Assembly: GCA_009733715.1 (NCBI GenBank)
Contig: WMKJ01000047.1
Span: 33,999 to 97,998, forward strand
Origin: Herpomyces periplanetae
Taxonomy: Eukaryota; Ascomycota; Laboulbeniomycetes; Herpomycetales; Herpomycetaceae
DNA: 64,000 nucleotides
Direction: 5' to 3'
Shown here: positions 38,799 to 64,000 of the stretch, one piece after another
Layout of the letters: every line of letters begins with the position of its first letter
How positions within the stretch are numbered: position 1 is the stretch's first letter
Notes under the pieces: model-generated
Databases searched by the model: none
Told to the model about the DNA's origin: nothing
The model's input: only the letters and a program-made list of their open reading frames with translations
Program-made: the position numbers and the translations under genes

Positions 38799-41700
38799 TT
38801 AAACATTAACGCTATAATTTCCATCGTGAGGCGAAGATGAAGGAACAGTGGATTTCCATGATCGCCATATTTTAATAAATTCATCGAGCCAAAATACAGA
38901 ACTGGTTAAGGCTATTAATTTTAACCAATCGAATAAACCAATTGACTGAGTTTCAAAAATGAGTTGTAGAGGAGGAAAATAAATGACGAGACACTGACCC
39001 ATAAGACAGCCCAAGATAGCCCAGTTAAACATTTTATTTGAACGAGATCCAAATAAATGAACTTGACCGAGTAATATACTTTTTGATTTACTTCGACATG
39101 CTAAAGCATTAAACATTCCGAATAAAACGAAACACGTAAAAGTCATGGTTGTATCACGAGCGGTGATGATACTTTTGTCGTGCATTTCATTCAAGTATAT
39201 TATAAAAGTTCCCGTTAATGTTATCAAGGAAGAAATGAAAACCTTTCGAATAATATCATGAGTTAAAACTCTAGCAGTTTTAGAGCGAGGAGGAAGTTTA
39301 AAAACTTCTTTATCCACAGGCTCTACACCCAAGGACTGAGCTGGAGGTCCATCCATGAGAATATTTATCCATAAGATTTGCATTGCATTTAAGGGATTTC
39401 TGTAACCCGCAATGGTACTGACCATCACCAAACCTAAGGCGGCCGCACTCATACTTAATTGAAAGGTTAAAAAGTTCTGAATATTATAAAAGATTCCTTT
39501 ACCTTCTTCGATAGCATGAAGAATAGTTTCGAAATGATCATCAGTTAATATCATATCAGCAGCTTCTTTTGCAACATCGGTAGCATATTTCCCCATACTG
39601 ATTCCAATGTCGGCTTTTTTAAGAGCGGGCGCATCGTTAACGCCATCACCAGTCATGGCGACAACATCACCGCGAGATTGAAACGCTCGAATTATCTTCA
39701 TTTTATGAACCGGATTAGTTCTAGCGAATACACTTGAACATGTCACTGCTTGACGTAGTTCATGATCATTCATGGAATCGATTTGATCACCTCGAAGACA
39801 CTCACCGCCCAAAATATAATTTCGCTTCACGTCACTATCGACAATTCCCAACTTCCGTGCAATAGCCATAGCCGTAATATCAGAATCACCCGTTATCATG
39901 ATAATTCTGATGCCACTTTTCATCAATCTGCTAATTGCTTTATCAACGTTAGGCCGAGGGGGATCTCTCATTCCTACGAGCCCTGCAAATTCTAAATTAT
40001 CGTAGAGATATTCATTATCAACGGACGGTGATATGCTAGCGGTTAATTCATCTTCTTCCGTTAATTTATTCATGACGTTTTTTTTGACTTCATCTTTGCT
40101 ATCTATACCGGAATTATTATTTATATTAACCATTCCACTAGCAAACCCTAAAACCCGGAGTCCCTCTTTTGCCATACTTTCAGCTGCCGATAAAACTTCC
40201 TTTCTGCTGTGCTCATTCATGACCATTTTACGGCCGTTTGTGTCAATATAACCCGAACATCTTGGTAACAATTTTTCAACGGCACCTTTCATATACGCTG
40301 TCGAATGAGCCCGAAAATTACCATTACTCGAATTAATCACACATCCCATCCATTTTCTTTCCGAACGAAAGGGAATTCTGTATAACCTTTCACCGATTCT
40401 GTCTCGTACATCTGTATCGCCAAACGAATCAATCAAGTCTAATAGAGCTACATCAGTTGGATGTCCTGTCCATTTACTTCTAAGTTGTTCATTTCCTCCT
40501 TTATCATGTCGTGAAGTTCTTTCATACGACTCTTGATATCCTCCAACTATTGGCCTTGCATCATTTGCAATATTCCCTATTCTAAGGATAGATTTGGTAG
40601 CAAAGTCAAGCTTTGATGATGAATATGTTGACTCTTGTTTAATCGATACCGGTACAGGTTCAATTGTTGATCCCTCTGGCGAAAAATGCCAAATTTTCGT
40701 TGCCGTCATATGATTAGTTGTTAATGTTCCTAAAACGATAACATCCTTAGCAAATATTTCACCGTGCTTAAAAGCTTGAGTCAATGAAGTGTCATTGGTA
40801 ATTCTTCCATTCATCCTTGACTTATCGACCTAGCGGGAAATTCATTTTATTTAACTTACCAGTTTTGTCGCAACAAATTATATTAACTCCACTCAAAGTT
40901 TCTACACTAGGTAGCTGTCGAATAATTGCCCCTCTTTTGGACATTCTCAGTACCCCCAAAGCTAGAGTAACGGTAACGATAATTGGAAGTCCTTCTGGAA
41001 TAGCCGCAACGGCTAATGATACACCAATCGTAAACATTTCTAAGAATGCCCAACCACGCCAAAGTCCAAGTATCATTATAAAACAGATTATACCAAAAGA
41101 AGCGTAACTGAGATCCTTTCCAAGTCTATCCATTGACAATTGAAGCGGCGTACGAGGTGACTCTATACCCTTTAACCGAGATGATATTACACCAAATTCA
41201 GTATCAAACCCCGTTGCCACAACTATACCAGACCCGTTCCCACTACGTACTAATGTTCCCATAAAGCCAATGTTAGTTTTATCGGAAATCTGAAGATCTG
41301 GAACATTTTTATAGGGAAACCCTTCATTTGGCTGATTTGGCGGTGAATTGTTCAGTATAGTATTTGAATAATTAAGCGTTTTTGTGGTTATTTTCATATT
41401 AGTTTTGACAATAGGTTCGTTTTCCCCTGTCAAATTCGATTCATCAATAGTTAAATCTGTTGCATTAACAATTCGAACGTCCGCTGGTATACGATCACCC
41501 GTACTAAAGATAACCAGATCCCCCGGAACCAAATGGCTTGCCGGTAAACTTACGGCATGAGTCGCATGGTCTTGTTCAACTAGATTTTTACCAATATTAT
41601 TAGAATCATGCTTATGGTTGTTATACCCATTGCAATTTGTGGTATTATGACCTGTATTTGATGGAACTTTATTCGTTACTGAAAATGGTAGAATATACTT

Positions 41701-42337
41701 CTGCTGTACTCCATCCCGTATGGCATGAGCAAAATGCGGAACCAAATTATTCAAAGCTTTTAGACTTCGTTCACTCCGATACTCTTGAACAAAACCAACC
41801 GTTACAACTATAGTAACAGCCACAGCGATACTAATAGCATCATCAAAATTTCCCATAATAAAGCTTACTGAAGCTGAACCAAGCAGTAGCAATATTAGCG
41901 ATTCTTTGAATTGCATAAGAAATCTAACCCACAAAGCTTCGCTATCCTCCTGCAATATTTCATTTGGGCCGCAGGAACGTAATCTTCTGAGTGCCTCACT
42001 TTGACTCAAACCGTGTGTTAAAGAAGTTCCAAGTTTTTGTGCTGTCTCGTCCAACGAAAGTAGGGAGAATTTACTACTTGCACTCTGTAAACACATAAAC
42101 ATCAGCAGTGCTAAATGGGCAAACGTTAACTAGTATGAGTATAAAAAGGGAAAAATCAAAGTAGGAAAACGCAGAACAGCCGAGAAAGGCATGTTTGGAA
42201 GAGTATACCATACGAGTACGAGTGTAAGAATCCGAAGTACGTGATGGTAAGACGGAAGATGAATGAGCCGAGTAGATGATGTGCCCGTCTCTCTGACCGT
42301 TTAAGCAGTAAGACGCTGCAGTGCTACTGTTTGGCAT
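38799..42337 (-). CDS. PMR1: Golgi-type Ca2+/Mn2+ P-type ATPase (SPCA)
   Basis: Secretory-pathway pump moving Ca2+ and Mn2+ into the Golgi. Exons on the minus strand are 42,337-42,209, 42,084-40,860 and 40,729-38,799, giving about 1,094 residues (longer than the usual 900-950). Seen are a [20 protein letters not shown]-region, an A-domain TGEN near residue 262, IPEGLP in M4, and the phosphorylation site DKTGT with Asp449. Also seen are [18 protein letters not shown] in the hinge and an [17 protein letters not shown]6 segment typical of SPCA pumps. Intron 2 (130 nt, GTAAGT) splits the Gly codon of DKTG. Intron 1 (124 nt) uses a GTATAC donor and a TTTACAG acceptor with a TGCTGAT branch site. 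The first 43-residue exon is therefore less certain. Extra length comes from Asn/His-rich insertions (see findings). The gene is divergent from SEC24. Confidence 0.93.
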
Positions 42338-44872: not shown

Positions 44873-47673
44873 ATGGATCAAAATCAACCTTCCACTACCG
44901 TTCATAAAAAAAGGCGAGCTTACGCTGCTCAAGCTTACGAATTTGGTGCAAATTCATCGTTAACACCTCTTAACGCTCAACAATTACCTCCCAGTCAGCA
45001 TGGGACCTCCGTGGAGCCACTTCAATCTCAACTCGGGATGATGTCTATAGACTCATCAACCGATGGACAATATTCTAACGTACCCTCGTACCAAAACCCT
45101 GGCGCTCAACCTTACCTTAATCAACCGGTGAGCGGTATCGATTCCCAAATGATTCAACCTGCGCCGATGCCCGTAATTCCTCAATCTCAACCTACTCATC
45201 AACTTAATCAACTATACCCATCGGACTTATCCCAACAACCTTTCAATGCTTATGAGTTAAGCTTACCTCCCCCTCCTATACAGTTACCTCCCAACGTACG
45301 TATGCTCCCTCAATTTTAACTGCTGACCAAGTTAACACTAACTGTTGGTTTTATATGTGTTTACTAACCAAGCATTATATTTATTAACAGTCTAGCGTTA
45401 CGTCGTCCCCGTACGCTGAATGTCCTCCCAAGTACATCCGCTCAACTATCAATGCTGTGCCTACAACAAATTCTTTACTGAAAAAATCTAAACTACCTTT
45501 CGCCCTGGTTATTCAGCCGTACACATCACTTCATGATGTAGAGGATCCAGTCCCGTTGATCACGGATCAAATAATTTCACGATGCCGTCGTTGTCGGTCC
45601 TATATTAACCCGTTTGTGACATTTTTGGATCAGGGTCATCGCTGGCGTTGCAATATGTGCGGATTGATAAACGATGTTTCCCAGGCCTTTGATTGGGACT
45701 CAGCAGCACAAAAGCCTGCGGATCGCTGGCTTCGTGCTGAGTTAAATTACTCTGTAGTAGAGTTTTTAGCACCTCAAGAATATATGGTTCGTGCCCCACA
45801 ACCACTTGTTTATCTGTTCTTGATTGATGTTAGCTTTGCTGCTGTATCGAATGGACTTGTTGCTACTGCGGCCCGATGTATAATGGAAAGTTTGGATCGG
45901 ATTCCTAACGCAGATTCCCGTACCAAATTGGGATTTATTTGCGTGGATAACGCCTTAAACTATTTCGCTATTAGTCGTAATGATAGTGAACAGAGTGGGT
46001 TGCGCATGTTGGTAGTTAATGAACTGGAGGAACTTTTTTTACCACTGCCAAATGATTTGGTAGTATCACTTGCAGAATGTCGGGCTAATATTGTGAGTTT
46101 TTTGGAAAAGCTTCAAGCAATATTTCAAAACTCTCAATCAAGTTCAAACGCTATGGGATCTGCATTGAGAGCAGGATATCGTTTGATTCAACAGACGGGG
46201 GGTAAATTAGTAGTAATTAGCGCGAGCTTACCCAATGTAGGACATGCAAAATTGGAAATGCGAGAAGATAAAAAGTTACTGGGCACATCAAAGGAGATTT
46301 CATTGTTACAAACGGCAAACAATTTTTATAAAAGCTTTGCCGTTGAGTGTTCCAAAAATCAAGTTTCAGTGGATATGTTTCTCTTTTCATCTCAGTATCA
46401 AGATGTAGCATCATTGTCTCAATTACCACGTTTTACAGGTGGACAAACATACTTTTATCCAGGCTGGAATGCTGCTCGACCTGAAGATGCAATTAAATTT
46501 GCGCGAGAATTTAGCGATTATTTATCAGTGGAAATTGGTCTTGAAGCAGTATTGCGAGTGAGGGCTACTAATGGTTTGAGAGTATGTTCGTTCTATGGAA
46601 ATCTGTTCAATAGATCGTCCGATTTATGTGCATTTCCGGCGTTTCCGCGTGACCAAGCGTATGTTGTCGAAGTGTTAATTGAAGAAACGGTGACTCGACC
46701 AGTCGCATGTTTACAAGCAGCAGTTTTACACACTACGTGTAATGGTGAACGTAGAATTCGTGTTATTACACTGGGCTTACCCACGACAGATTCACTTTCT
46801 ACAGTATTCGCTAGTGCAGACCAGGGCGCTATTATAACGTATTTTAGTCATAAAGCCGTTGAAAAAGCATTCAATAGTGGACTGGATGCGGCACGAGACT
46901 CTTTGCAGTCCAAATTAATAGATATTATGCAAACTTATCGTAAAGAGTTGGCCGGAGGTAATATGGGTTTTGGGGGTATACAGTTACCGGCGAATCTTCG
47001 CGGACTACCTGCACTGATACTCGGGTTAATGAAAAATGTAAGTAAGGGCGGGACGTACGTTATAAAAGAATTAATTAACAATGAGATTGTTTAGGTTGCT
47101 TTACGCAAATCAACATTGATACCATCGGATTTGCGGTCAGCCGCATTGTGTTTAATATCGACGCTTCCGGCACCTTTAATGATACAATATATTTATCCTC
47201 ACATTTACTCACTACATGATATGCCGGATGATGCTGGAACACCGGATGAAAAAACGGGAGAAATTATTTTACCAGTGGTAATTAACGCATCATCAGATCG
47301 TTTAGTTCGGCATGGTTTATACCTCTTTGATGACGGACAGAATCAATTCCTTTGGGTTGGTAGTGGGGTTGTTGATGCGTTAGTCTTGGATGTGTTTGGA
47401 GTCTCAGATAAATCAATGATAAGACAAGGGAAAGGAACATTACCTCAACTGGATAACGATTTTAATGAACGAGTTAGAGCAGTGATTGAAAAGTCTGGTT
47501 CACGACGTTGGAAGGCAGTTGGAAGTATTACATTTCCTTCGTTATACATTGTTCGTGAAGATGGCGAACCGAGTTTAAGGTTATGGGCGCAATCTTTGCT
47601 GGTGGAAGATGGAACTGATCAGTCCATGGGCTACTTACAATGGCTAGGCTTTTTAAGAGAAAAAGTAAGTTAG
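44873..47673 (+). CDS. SEC24: COPII coat cargo-adaptor Sec24
   Basis: Inner-coat COPII subunit that binds Sec23 and selects cargo at ER exit sites. Exons are 44,873-45,295, 45,391-47,037 and 47,095-47,673, with introns of 95 and 57 nt, both phase 0. They give 882 residues, normal for the family. The first about 160 residues are Gln/Pro/Ser-rich disorder. [20 protein letters not shown] then opens the conserved part. The zinc finger is Cys206, Cys209, Cys228 and Cys231 (SRCRRC..RCNMC). The trunk ([12 protein letters not shown]), beta-sandwich, helical ([14 protein letters not shown]) and gelsolin-like ([17 protein letters not shown]) domains follow in order. The ATG at 44,873 (MDQNQPS) was chosen over upstream in-frame sequence because that sequence is AT-rich and hydrophobic. 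The C-terminus FLREKVS fits the family end. Confidence 0.95.
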
Positions 47674-55890: not shown

Positions 55891-58012
55891 ATGATAAGTC
55901 TTCAACCACTTGTCTTCGTACCACTACTCCATCGCCTACTCTCATTTATTCACCTCACTAAATCCTTTTCCACAATTCTCTTTTTCTTTTTAGTCCTTTG
56001 TCCCTCTGCCACCTCTTCTCCCTCCCTTCTTCCATATATTCCTTCCGTCACTACCTATTCCACACCACCCTATCCGCCGCATGAATCCCCGTTACTCTAT
56101 CATCAAAATGTCCAAGCTCATACCGTGTCCAGTTTCGCTCGCTTCCAGATCTTTTCCTTATCAAAACGGGGTCTTTCCAATGTTAAATCTACATTCCCTT
56201 CTGCTTCCCCTCCACCCCGATGCCAACTTCTCGGGCACTTTTCCATGCTCGTGCAAGCTGCTTTAGGTATTACTGCTCTACTCTCTCTCGTTTATAAACG
56301 TTGGACTGAACTTCCACAACGCCCCGTTCGCATATGGTTCTTCGATGTATCTAAACAGGTTATCGGTTCTTTCTTATTACACTTTATCAATCTTGCCATG
56401 AGCATATTTAACCCCGGCTTCGATTCTCATGTACTACATAATCAGAATAACTTATCCTCTCCACAACCACCCCCTCCAAATTTCTCTTCCTTTACTCTAG
56501 TCGCCCGTGATCATCCTACAGAACCTAATCCATGCTCATACTACTTGTTAAATCTTTTATTCGACGTACGTACCCTCTTAACTTGCTTTTATCTTGATCA
56601 AACCTTTATTAACGGCTAACCCTTCGCCTACCCTCCTATAGACTACCATCGGTATACCAATACTTATGATATGGTTGCGCATCTTCCACAATTTATTCTT
56701 ATTTACACCACTTGCCCATCCCGAAATATCTATCGCCTCAGGTGTATATAGCCCTCCACCTACTTCCGCAGTCCCATATCCTCGACCCCGTGCATCATGG
56801 TGGTTGAAGCAGTGTTTAATTTACTTTCTCGGCTTAGTCGGCATGAAGTTATGCTCATTAATCTTTTTCAAGTATTGTCCCTGGATAGTATGGTTCGGTG
56901 ATTGGGCCTTGCGATGGACCCAAAATGACTCTACATTACAGATAATCTTTGTTATGTTTATCTTTCCCGTCATACTGAATGCATGTCAGTATTGGATTAT
57001 CGATTCATTTATAAAGACAAATACATCCTATACTACTACACCCGCTACCGTTACCACTACTACTACCCCTACCGCTACCACTGATGCTTTTCATCATGAC
57101 GAAGCAACGGCACTAACAAGACGGCGAAGCTTAACCGATATCTACACACAAACTAGCTCCGGCTCCACTTCACCCCCATTTCCCCGTCGTCCCGATTCTC
57201 CAATTGACGTAAATTGTATCGACGAATCCAGGCGCAGTACTACATCCGAATTTACTCGACTTATCGAACACACTTTGGATCACCCAAGTCGCCTACCTTG
57301 TGCAAATTATTCCAACTCCAAACAGTCTATACAACCTTCATCTCGTACTTCCACTGCCGCCGCCGTCTCCTCCACAACCACCACTTCTGGTTTACTGGGA
57401 TTTTGTAAACCTAACCAACGTTCAAATCAGTCCACCTCCACCGTCGCTGAACTTGACAAAATGAACTCTTTTCCTGATTATGATCGACACGCACGATTTA
57501 TGCGCCTCGCTATAAACGAAGCTCGCAAAGCTCCTGAGGTATCATCCTGTTATCGTGTGGGCTGTATTATCGTAAACCCTTCAACGGATGAAATCCTCTC
57601 TACAGGCTATACTCGTGAACTACACGGTAATACCCACGCTGAACAAAATGCTCTGACCAAACTCTACCAGCGCTTCCACCCCGATTTCACAGTCACTGCC
57701 ACATCTTCCCCTCCATTTCTTAATTTACCCTGCCCCGTTCTACTCTATACCACCTTTGATCCATGTCTTCAACGCTTAAGCGGTCATAAATCCTGCGTCG
57801 ATCGTATACTCGAAGCTCGTCTCCCCTCCCTTACCCGGGACTCTCGTCCTGCCATCTCCCGTATTTACGTCGGCGCTAATGAACCCGACACTTTCATTCC
57901 CTTCAACTCCGGTCGACGTGTTTTAACCCAGTCTGGCATCGAATGGATTCAGTTTCCCGGCTTCGAACGTGAGATTCTCGATATTGCCACATCTGCTCAC
58001 CCTCCATCATAA
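55891..58012 (+). CDS. STIMATE/TMEM110-type membrane protein fused to RIB2-like deaminase
   Basis: Exons are 55,891-56,565 and 56,642-58,012 (76-nt intron, phase 0), giving about 681 residues. Residues 111-350 match the STIMATE (TMEM110, yeast YPL162C-like) family: CQLLGHFSMLVQAALG, RPVRIWFFDVSKQVIGS, NPCSYYLLNLLFDTTIG, SWWLKQCLIYFLGLVGMK, LQIIFVMFIFPVILNACQYW. These proteins lie in ER or vacuolar membrane. Residues 351-498 are a Thr/Ser-rich linker. Residues 499-681 are a zinc deaminase of the RIB2 type: YRVGCIIVNP, NTHAEQNAL (His557, Glu559), then DPCLQRLSGHKSCVDRIL (Cys600, Cys610). That family deaminates a diaminopyrimidine intermediate of riboflavin synthesis. One frame covers linker and deaminase without a stop. 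Met499 (57,461) could instead start a separate gene. The first about 105 residues are uncertain because the region is pyrimidine-rich. Confidence 0.8.
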
Positions 58013-58367
58013 TTTTAACCTACATACGTGTATGTTTGGTGTGTACACTGTCTACATCTTTTCACGTTGTCACTGCACTTGGAAATTTTATTAGTATGTC
58101 AATTTGGTACAACAATACAAAGAACGTGTGCGTGCGTGTGTGCGTACGTCTCAACTAAAGTCTCCCGACGGTCCACCCATCGCATTCGCCACTTAAGAAT
58201 ATGCAGCACAAAAGCCCAAAGTAGTCAGACAAGAATGAATCAATGAACCAACGAACGAATGAGTGAATGAATGTAAGAATAAATACACATAATGGTAAAC
58301 ACAATGTGTAAACCTCATCCAAAATTCAACTACAAAATCTTCTCCAAAACACTTTACAAACCTTCCT
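58013..58367. other. STIMATE-deaminase/RAD21 convergent 3' spacer
   Basis: 355 nt between two stop codons. It holds GTGTGCGTGCGTGTGTGCG near 58,126 and a GAATGAATCAATGAACCAACG run near 58,236. Nothing coding was seen. Confidence 0.5.
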
Positions 58368-60431
58368 TCACGCTAACACAGCATCAAACGTAGCAGCGGG
58401 CTGCTCTCCAAATGTGTTATCATTAATCCAATCCGCCCATAGCGCTCGTTTGGCGTTGATTTGAATCCGTCCGCCTAACTCATTATTATCCTGTTTAACT
58501 TTAACCGCATCCTTCGTTGCCAGCACTAGTATCTCAAAAAACATTTTAGTCGCTTCAATCTTTGTAGTCGTATCTTGGGGTAATAAGTCTTGCAAGTATA
58601 CCGACTCATTTTCACCGCCTGAATAATTTTTAAATACTTCTCGGAGCAAATAAATTGTATTTCTTGTTCCGTGGGCCATTACCCCATCCTCTAACATATG
58701 CCCAGATACTATTACTCCGGGTGTTGATCCTTCACACCCTACGCTTAGCTCACGCTCCGGAGTTAATACCTCATCTGAACTATCCTGTGATGTATCAACT
58801 TCTTCAATAGGCCGAGCCTCATCACTTATTAGCGCTGGAAGCTCAAAGTGTTGGTCCAGATCTGTAACTTCTACCGTATCCCGAACTGTTTGCTCATCAT
58901 AAATATGACCTCCAAAATCTTCCATTGCACTCTCATCGTGAATTTGAACGAGAGGTAAATCGTACGATTCACCCGCTTCTATCATTCGTTTTCGCTTCAA
59001 AGCTCGCGGATTGCAAATTGTATTAATCGAAAATAAATCCCGTAACTCCGGCGCCCATCCTCGTGTACGCTCTTCTCCGAGTACACTAGATACAAATGCC
59101 CCATCTTTTTGCATTTGTGTTAAAGCCACCAGAACTGGATTGCGCGGCAAGAAGCTAACTGGCTTTAGAATCTTTGATCTGTCTTGTTGTTGCTGTCGAA
59201 TTTCCGAATTCGCAATCTCCGTCGTTGCATCAGCAATTAATACCCGAACTTTACGGGCACGTTGCGGTTGTTGAATATTCTCTTCTACTTCATCCGGTAC
59301 TTGTAAAATGTGCGATGAATCTCTGTGAGGATGCAACGTTCTCTCAAGTTCCCGTTCCATGGAACTTCGAACTGATGATAACGGTGACAACGACTCTCGC
59401 GTAAACTCTGCTCTTGTTCCATTGTTTGGTGTATCAGGCAAATCTTCATGTGTAAATTGTCCATGTATTTGCTGAACAGTTTCAATCGCGTTCTCCGATT
59501 CCTTTGCTCCAACCGTTAAGACTGACTCGATATTCGAAGGTGGCTCATCCCCAATATCCAGTTCCAAATCATCGTCATTGTAAAGTACAGGTGGGTCAAT
59601 ATCTTCTGCGTAACTATTCTCAAAATTCGCTTCCATTGATACAGCTCGACGACCTTGTTCGACACTCATTGTAGTATCCTCAGGGTTATCGCCAATATCC
59701 AAGTCTAAATCATCATCATCTAGGGGCATAGATTTTGACGTATCATTAGAATTCTCAATACTTTCTACCAGTAATTGTCCACTTGAATCCCATGAAAGTA
59801 GAGAAGCATTAGCCGGAGCTTGGGTTAACGTATCCATGTTAAACGAAGCATCTGCCAAAAGCAGCTCAGGATCCGGCATGGGAGCAATAAGATCGAGTTC
59901 TGTGAGTGCATCTGGCAAGGTTAACGAAGCTGGATTTGCCGAGTGAGCTTGATTAGCGGGTAGATCCACATTGCCAGGTTTAAATGCCTATATTTATATT
60001 GAAACAGAAAATGTTAGCTAGTTACTATCATAGGGCGATTCGAAGAGATGACTCCACACAATTTGTCCGTGTAGAGTGACATGTATGAACAGTGGAAAAA
60101 AATAGTCACTATACACATTTAAAGATGTGGTTAAAGTGGCTATGCTGAATGAGTTGAATAATACTACCATTTTAATTTTAACTAAAGCTTCGTTACAGTC
60201 ATCCAGTAAATAACGAGCTTTGCGACTGTAAATCCTTACGACGCCTAGCAATAACTGACCGCTAAGGCGAAGAGCCATAGGAGCTTGTCCTTCGTTAACG
60301 ATAGCGTTAACACTTTGTTCTATTCCTGAACTTAATACATCTTTTTTGGTTAACTTGCGTTCAATGTTAGCAGCCAGCCATACTCGAGCCAGTGGCCCGG
60401 TTTTCGATAAGAGTGTTTCCGAGTAAAACAT
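58368..60431 (-). CDS. RAD21: Cohesin kleisin subunit Rad21/Scc1
   Basis: Kleisin that closes the cohesin ring around sister chromatids and is cut by separase at anaphase. Exon 1 is 60,431-60,168 and exon 2 is 59,987-58,368 (180-nt intron, GTAGTA donor, phase 0), giving 627 residues. The N-terminal Smc3-binding domain is clear: [56 protein letters not shown] then [10 protein letters not shown] across the splice. The middle is acidic and disordered, with the separase-type site SVEQGRR at residues 196-202. The C-terminal winged-helix (Smc1-binding) domain is shorter and more diverged ([21 protein letters not shown]) but in the expected place. Rad21 is preferred over the meiotic Rec8 because of the KIKMAFKPG context. 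Confidence 0.93.
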
Positions 60432-60653
60432 GAGAACGGTAAAGCGCGTAACAAGGGGAAAAGCGTAAAGTCGTCAAACTAGGGTACCAAATTTTATGAA
60501 CTGGTCACCGCCGTAGTTGGTGGCTTCGTTTATACAAGTATTTGCAACTCTGTAGGCGTAAAAGACTGATTCACGTAAAATAATCGTATTTAAAATGTTA
60601 AACAAGCCTGAATTTTAATCACCCGCCTGCTGTATATTACGTTCAAGACTGTT

Positions 60654-63350: not shown

Positions 63351-63411
63351 GACAGGACAGGACAGGTCAGGTCAGGTCAGGTCAAGACTGGTCAGGTCAG
63401 GTCAGGTCAGG
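63351..63411 (+). repeat. CAGGT/CAGGA pentamer microsatellite
   Basis: About twelve five-base units, first CAGGA then mostly CAGGT, with one interruption (CAAGACTGGT) in the middle. A simple tandem repeat with no sign of coding use. Confidence 0.85.
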
Positions 63412-64000
63412 ACACGACACGAGAATACACCTTACGGTGTGATAGAATGTGATGTGACTGAAAGCAAAGGGGATTACACCCGTCCGTGTGATAGTGAGTC
63501 GCAAATAAGATTTAGAGAAGGTATGGAGTGTATTAGATTCCGTTATAACATTGAGATCATCAAACTACAGACTCATTCTTGCTCACTATGCAAAGTATAT
63601 GATTCTGGTCCATACACTCTTCGCGTATTTGAATAGTATTTCACCATGCACGAGATATCGTAACGTAATTCTGCTATCGGTATGAGTTACCCGACCTATG
63701 GGTTCTTTGACAGATGGGAGATAAAAGGAATATAGTGGTAAAAGTGAGAATATCCAACCGCATTTTATTTGCACGTTCACTAAGTTAACTACTTTCATAC
63801 CTACATGTACATACAGATGAATTATGCCGGGGTTAACATACAGTGGGTAAAATGGGGAAAATCCGGAACAATCGAAGGATTGATACGACAAACTTTGGAA
63901 ATTAGGGTAATGCAAATGAAGTGGAAGGAAAAAGGTTCGGTTGATTTTTGTTTGCAGTGGGATAAAGTGTAAAATCTTTCCGGGTGGGACTCGGTTTGTG

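Follow-up and report, generated by a model that had tools for sequence, protein, structure and literature searches.

The window analysed here, a 64,000-nucleotide stretch of DNA, carries on its plus strand what is probably a single gene for a 681-residue protein, in which a STIMATE anchor would hold a cytosol-facing Rib2 deaminase at an internal membrane. One shared reading frame (56,642-58,012) is open for 456 codons and holds STIMATE (PF12400), a linker and the whole deaminase, in that order; the frame upstream, which ends at 56,619, is joined to it in frame by a 76-nt intron (56,566-56,641), giving a spliced protein of 681 aa. ORF and Pfam analyses confirmed the claim of the preliminary description that one uninterrupted frame contains the second half of STIMATE, a 148-residue linker and a complete deaminase. 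At the level of sequence the fused reading frame is real, and from it we infer a transcript and a protein. The gene is made up of the following parts:

55,891-56,565, plus strand: exon 1, drawn from its frame and splice site and from hydropathy, start codon uncertain; it opens with an N-terminal extension, hydrophobic over aa 1-48, and goes on into the membrane region, of which it encodes hydrophobic segments at aa 117-135 and 157-175 and the start of a third (hydropathy)
56,566-56,641, plus strand: intron of 76 nt, GTACGT...CTAAC...TATAG, from splice fit and the gain in STIMATE score
56,642-57,016, plus strand: exon 2, second part of the STIMATE domain (Pfam PF12400, hydropathy); it completes the third hydrophobic segment and adds segments four and five
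57,017-57,460, plus strand: Thr/Ser-rich linker of 148 residues, predicted to be disordered, open and in coding phase
57,461-58,012, plus strand: Rib2-type deaminase, 183 aa plus stop (Pfam, PDB, model and fold search, substrate residues), with THAE and PCx9C zinc motifs and an internal ATG at its start (57,461)

We propose that this one gene would yield a single mRNA and from it a 681-residue protein in which a Thr/Ser-rich linker, predicted to be disordered, connects the STIMATE domain to a complete deaminase of the Rib2 type. Held at an internal membrane (ER or vacuole) but on its cytosolic side, and able to move freely on the linker, the enzyme would turn DARIPP into ARIPP, which in fungi is step three of riboflavin synthesis. 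Any STIMATE mRNA that has no splice or poly(A) site inside the linker would read into the deaminase.

Splicing raises the STIMATE score from 112.3 bits (exon 2 alone, profile 12-123) to 131.6 bits (profile 1-123 of 124), and because the exon junction falls within the STIMATE domain the intron at 56,566-56,641 is well supported. In exon 1's open frame the first ATG lies at 55,891, the putative start, which only that frame supports. Exon 1 by itself matched no Pfam family at E up to 1, the Pfam matches of the spliced protein begin only at residue 215, and exon 1 shows little period-3 signal (z 1.5). Downstream of the fusion gene an AATAAA lies at 58,278. Elsewhere in the window, two probable introns recognised by eye (GTAAGT...TTTAG at 47,038-47,094 and GTACGT...CTAAC...AACAG at 45,296-45,390) are of the same style as the 76-nt intron; in a third, the probable intron of a Rad21 gene, the donor seems by eye to be GTAACT.

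The membrane part is a nearly complete STIMATE domain. Pfam scored PF12400 at 2.6e-32 on the 456-aa frame (profile 12-123 of 124, above the curated cut-off) and at 2.8e-38 on the spliced protein (131.6 bits versus a cut-off of 22). Hydropathy alone marks five hydrophobic segments in this region (aa 117-135, 157-175, 219-237, 283-301 and 322-340), so that the multi-span membrane character of the STIMATE family recurs between aa 117 and 340. Residues 117-214 are judged to be the first part of the STIMATE protein from hydropathy and by comparison with animal STIMATE. In a structural model of exon 2 the membrane part is helical, though unreliable in detail there, as the alignment consisted of 15 bacterial deaminases and the membrane part had no relatives in it; the deaminase blocks reached pLDDT 68-97 except the last, at 50.

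The charge balance in the loops between the five segments argues for a cytosolic C-terminus and hence a cytosolic enzyme: K+R against D+E stands at 5 versus 2 in loop 136-156 and 3 versus 1 in the loop before the fourth segment, and at 1 versus 3 and 1 versus 2 in loops 176-218 and 309-321. The 69-residue stretch ahead of the first STIMATE segment, however, carries net positive charge (K+R 5, D+E 1), which makes an N-terminus on the outside, and with it the proposed orientation, less likely. Glycosylation sequons occur in the predicted lumenal loops (187, 197, 320) and also in the linker (352, 447, 487). By the loop charges the enzyme would lie on the cytosolic side, where riboflavin substrates are expected. 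We take yeast Ypl162c to be a member of the STIMATE family. This protein is placed at the vacuolar rim in a published account (PMC8176713), and animal STIMATE is described as an ER protein with a polybasic C-terminal tail that stabilises ER-plasma membrane junctions (PMC8944985); by analogy, both the tail and the junction role would fit a cytosolic C-terminus. The interpretation given in the preliminary description is partly supported; the tethering to an ER or vacuolar membrane that it suggests draws on what is reported of the STIMATE family in animals (ER, PMC8944985) and yeast (Ypl162c, PMC8176713).

The deaminase part of the frame matched Inv-AAD (PF18785, 6.1e-35) and dCMP_cyt_deam_1 (PF00383, 6.8e-12), both above their curated cut-offs. 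A search of NCBIfam gave no match. Its closest solved structure by sequence is Rib2 of Aspergillus oryzae (AoRib2; E 1.8e-28), which, according to its structural report, deaminates the riboflavin intermediate DARIPP (PMC8256712). The zinc and catalytic motifs fall at H59-A-E61, C102 and C112 of the deaminase. Of the zinc ligands claimed earlier for this enzyme, HAE was found as claimed and PC..C was not: the actual motif is PC-x9-C (PCLQRLSGHKSC), in agreement with the form PCX8-9C given for Rib2 (PMC8256712). That report names H61, C102 and C112 of AoRib2 as zinc ligands, E63 as the catalytic residue, and T53, N59, R105, S107 and E136 as side-chain contacts to DARIPP (PMC8256712). All nine of these side chains (T53, N59, H61, E63, C102, R105, S107, C112, E136) are kept in the window's enzyme, while at F26 and E100 of AoRib2, whose contacts are made by the backbone, it has Y and D. 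R105 and E136 are found in 35 of 35 bacterial rows of the alignment and S107 in 34 of 35, so these three are no marker of the fungal kind, since bacterial rows share them; N59 and T53, by contrast, differ in most of the 35 rows (T replaced by S in 34), and in this alignment they set the window's enzyme with fungal Rib2. Glu51 of AoRib2 is also named as helping proton transfer (PMC8256712); counted along the aligned AoRib2 stretch, position 51 is a glycine.

A model of the deaminase, built with 35 of 80 bacterial relatives (pLDDT 88.4), retrieved AoRib2 entries at ranks 1 to 3 of a PDB fold search (TM 0.69-0.74, rmsd 5.4-5.5), followed at ranks 4 to 13 by nine chains that are RibD or RibG by title (rmsd 2.3-4.1). 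The rmsd is larger to AoRib2 (about 5.5) than to several RibD chains (2.3-2.8), perhaps reflecting the bacterial rows used in model building. The sequence match to AoRib2, the fold ranks and the nine retained side chains together support the earlier assignment to the RIB2 type. We also considered the name of the strongest Pfam match, Inv-AAD, which could suggest an AID/APOBEC-like editing deaminase, and set that reading aside: the same Pfam model scores AoRib2, whose role in riboflavin synthesis has been demonstrated, higher than the window's deaminase (154.4 versus 123.5 bits), so the name is no pointer to editing.

The linker occupies the 148 codons between the end of the STIMATE match and the ATG at 57,461, and 49% of its residues are Ser, Thr, Pro or Asn. 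Its shared frame is free of stops, against 3 and 8 stops in the two remaining forward frames. Chance is an unlikely source of such openness: dinucleotide shuffling left 0.32% of 5,000 sequences open when applied to the linker and 0.76% of 5,000 when applied to the 5' flank, figures that matter because the strand is purine-poor and stops are rarer on it; the plus strand is indeed pyrimidine-rich, and another frame is open for 83 codons over part of the linker. Read in the same phase, the linker and the deaminase agree in third-position composition (A.25, C.32, G.05, T.38 for the former; A.20, C.36, G.07, T.38 for the latter). The linker's phase signal has a z of 13.3 (reached by none of 2,000 shuffles), part of which stems from Thr, Ser, Pro and Ala codons with C at position 2, and a z of 6.0 when the part in a tandem repeat or low-complexity stretch (57,032-57,082) is left out; the two flanks give 0.2 and -0.1. 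Taken separately, the linker halves give 9.2 and 3.1, the second of these values being reached by 23 of 2,000 shuffles. Neither STIMATE piece shows a three-base period clearly (z 1.5 and 0.3).

A positional model built from the STIMATE and deaminase parts of the same gene, with the linker left out, scored the shared frame best in all eight sliding windows that touch the linker (0.00 in the linker versus -0.26 and -0.34 for the other frames) and in 18 of 21 exon windows, the three misses all lying within the STIMATE membrane region. It ranked the shared frame first on both sides of the tandem repeat and up to the end of the deaminase. A codon model derived from the genes nearby, seven coding stretches in all, was negative in all forward frames of the fusion gene and favoured one reverse frame in the linker (0.01 versus -0.36 for the shared frame); this model cannot decide, because a reverse frame also wins in the deaminase itself (-0.03 versus -0.25). 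The linker is predicted to be disordered, with pLDDT 31-39 in 12 of the 14 ten-residue blocks that cover residues 131-270 of exon 2 and 50 and 67 in the others. Our conclusion, on this one sequence, is that the linker has served as protein-coding sequence in the shared frame. The region has a marked strand asymmetry: between 54,750 and 58,249, which takes in the gene and its 5' flank, GC skew runs from -0.22 to -0.64 per 500-base step, and third-position C makes up 26-36% in the gene's four parts versus 9-14% in six of seven neighbouring coding stretches and 24% in the seventh.

The main rival to a single tethered protein is a second, untethered product, whether from the ATG at 57,461 or by way of candidate introns ending at 57,430. 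In the first form, which we consider unlikely, the locus would have two products: a promoter inside the gene, at the STIMATE end or in the linker, would drive a stand-alone soluble Rib2 from the ATG at 57,461, whether or not the long fused form is also made, and the linker would double as coding sequence and promoter. This ATG is in frame and has an A at -3 (GACAAA before ATGA), and it lies about where a stand-alone Rib2 would begin, since the match starts at residue 9 counted from it and at residue 4 of AoRib2, itself reported as a stand-alone mould enzyme (PMC8256712). A TATAAA is present at 57,010, a motif that also turns up in 21% of shuffles of 56,900-57,460, and an AATACA at 57,020 counts against a single product. 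However, two out-of-frame ATGs (57,084 and 57,096, with ORFs of 10 and 6 codons) intervene between the TATAAA and 57,461, and with 24 ATGs from 55,891 to 57,460, start included, ribosomes that scan from the STIMATE start would not get as far as 57,461. A mere upstream region, moreover, does not explain why the linker keeps coding phase throughout. An unspliced STIMATE transcript would still run into the deaminase, and a search of 56,900-57,460 for AATAAA, ATTAAA and AATAAT found none.

Alternative splicing, which we consider highly unlikely, would use an acceptor at 57,430 (CTAAC...TCAG) with a frame-shifting donor such as that at 57,345 to give a STIMATE-only protein, and retention would give the fusion. 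A loose scan from 56,960 on, scoring consensus matches only, listed 23 candidate introns, of which six end at or before 57,430; two of these keep the fusion and four give STIMATE alone. Two of the candidates are:

57,209-57,430, plus strand: candidate extra intron of 222 nt, frame-keeping, which would leave a shorter linker and the fusion intact (consensus match only)
57,345-57,430, plus strand: candidate alternative intron of 86 nt, frame-shifting, which would give a STIMATE-only protein of 465 aa (consensus match only)

The four donors that shift the frame and lose the deaminase (57,216, 57,237, 57,300 and 57,345) share the same short tail, the candidate branch equals that of the supported intron, and the GTACTT at 57,345 is one base off GTACGT; donors do vary here, as the probable Rad21 intron seems by eye to use GTAACT. 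Yet all four (GTATCG, GTACTA, GTGCAA and GTACTT) depart from the GTACGT and GTAAGT of the introns that were read, and the donor GTAAAT at 57,209, paired with the acceptor at 57,430, keeps both frame and fusion, as does the candidate at 56,989-57,156. The coding phase of the second linker half (z 3.1) also argues against its being spliced out. Least credible of all is that the parts come from two neighbouring genes, brought together by a mistake in sequencing or assembly or by sequence that happens to be open: although there is a single sequence, its strand is pyrimidine-rich and errors are likelier in the low-complexity stretch at 57,032-57,082, openness in the shared frame has a shuffle frequency of 0.3-0.8% before agreement of the two frames is even required, and that frame is the top-scoring one before and after the repeat, right through the deaminase.

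The remainder of the window provides the setting of the gene. Its first half (1-32,000) is AT-rich (29-33% GC), and its open frames do not exceed 158 codons; four frames tested from it had no Pfam match at E up to 0.05. A secretory-pathway-type calcium ATPase lies in two frames on the minus strand at 38,802-42,129, the best solved match of its C-terminal frame being the type 2C member 1. A Rad21/Rec8 cohesin gene, also in two frames on the minus strand (58,368-60,473), is convergent with the fusion gene. A CAGGT-type tandem repeat of about 12 copies of 5 bases runs from 63,351 to 63,419, and a yeast cell-wall family was matched weakly, below the cut-off (E 0.012). Together with the short CTAAC introns and the Rib2-type enzyme, this match suggests a fungal source. 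Neither a tRNA scan nor Rfam at gathering scores found anything in the window.

To our knowledge, the enzymes of the riboflavin pathway are regarded as soluble proteins. If one of them carried its own membrane anchor, the site of vitamin B2 synthesis could be tested, and the enzyme fused to STIMATE hints directly at the function of fungal STIMATE proteins. We offer tentatively, and regard as doubtful, the wider idea that this lineage anchors riboflavin synthesis at an internal membrane via STIMATE and that fungal STIMATE works with flavin metabolism more generally; if true, anchored synthesis could feed flavin to ER or vacuolar enzymes.

No report of a STIMATE-deaminase fusion was found among the papers listed in literature searches, which left most subscription journals outside. 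The 456-aa protein had three pattern matches and no relatives in viral contigs, where STIMATE was searched as part of this protein only, and the deaminase alone had 26 pattern matches and no relatives in bacterial and archaeal genome contigs; an alignment search with the deaminase in bacterial and archaeal genome contigs identified 387 relatives among 477 stretches, and a plasmid search returned 45 records, 43 from Streptomyces and 2 from Nocardia. The 80 of the 387 relatives that were retained all carry actinobacterial titles. In 47 of these 80 loci a RibD_C reductase precedes the deaminase on the same strand, no more than 400 bases away, 11 of them with RibD_C and deaminase in one open frame, and none was found within that distance and strand in the other 33. 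Two further loci are annotated only as a deaminase and a dihydrofolate reductase family protein, RibD_C being confirmed in one, and a Nocardia locus (1109-2950) looks by eye like a one-frame reductase-deaminase. Rib2-like deaminases thus join partners readily. The pairing of STIMATE with a Rib2 deaminase combines two known families in an arrangement seen in a single genome and found nowhere else in this analysis, which covered viral, plasmid, bacterial and archaeal collections.

Of the known systems, AoRib2 (PDB 7dry, 7drz, 7ds0, 7ds1; PMC8256712) is the closest by solved sequence and fold and shares the zinc motifs, but is described there as a 222-residue deaminase without a membrane domain, a known stand-alone form of mould Rib2. 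Yeast RIB2, as portrayed in the same report, likewise carries its deaminase at the C-terminus of a larger protein (PMC8256712), but its partner is a pseudouridine synthase, whereas here it is STIMATE; the spliced protein had no Pfam match to a pseudouridine synthase domain at E up to 1, and the contrast with the yeast architecture drawn in the preliminary description therefore holds. In the actinobacterial pairs and fusions a Rib2-like deaminase similarly adjoins a partner or shares an open frame with it, although that partner is a riboflavin-type reductase and not a membrane protein. STIMATE/TMEM110 (PF12400) supplies the other half of the comparison: the domain is nearly full here (1-123 of 124) and has five hydrophobic segments, but where the C-terminus of animal STIMATE is reported to be a polybasic tail (PMC8944985), that of the window's protein would be an enzyme.
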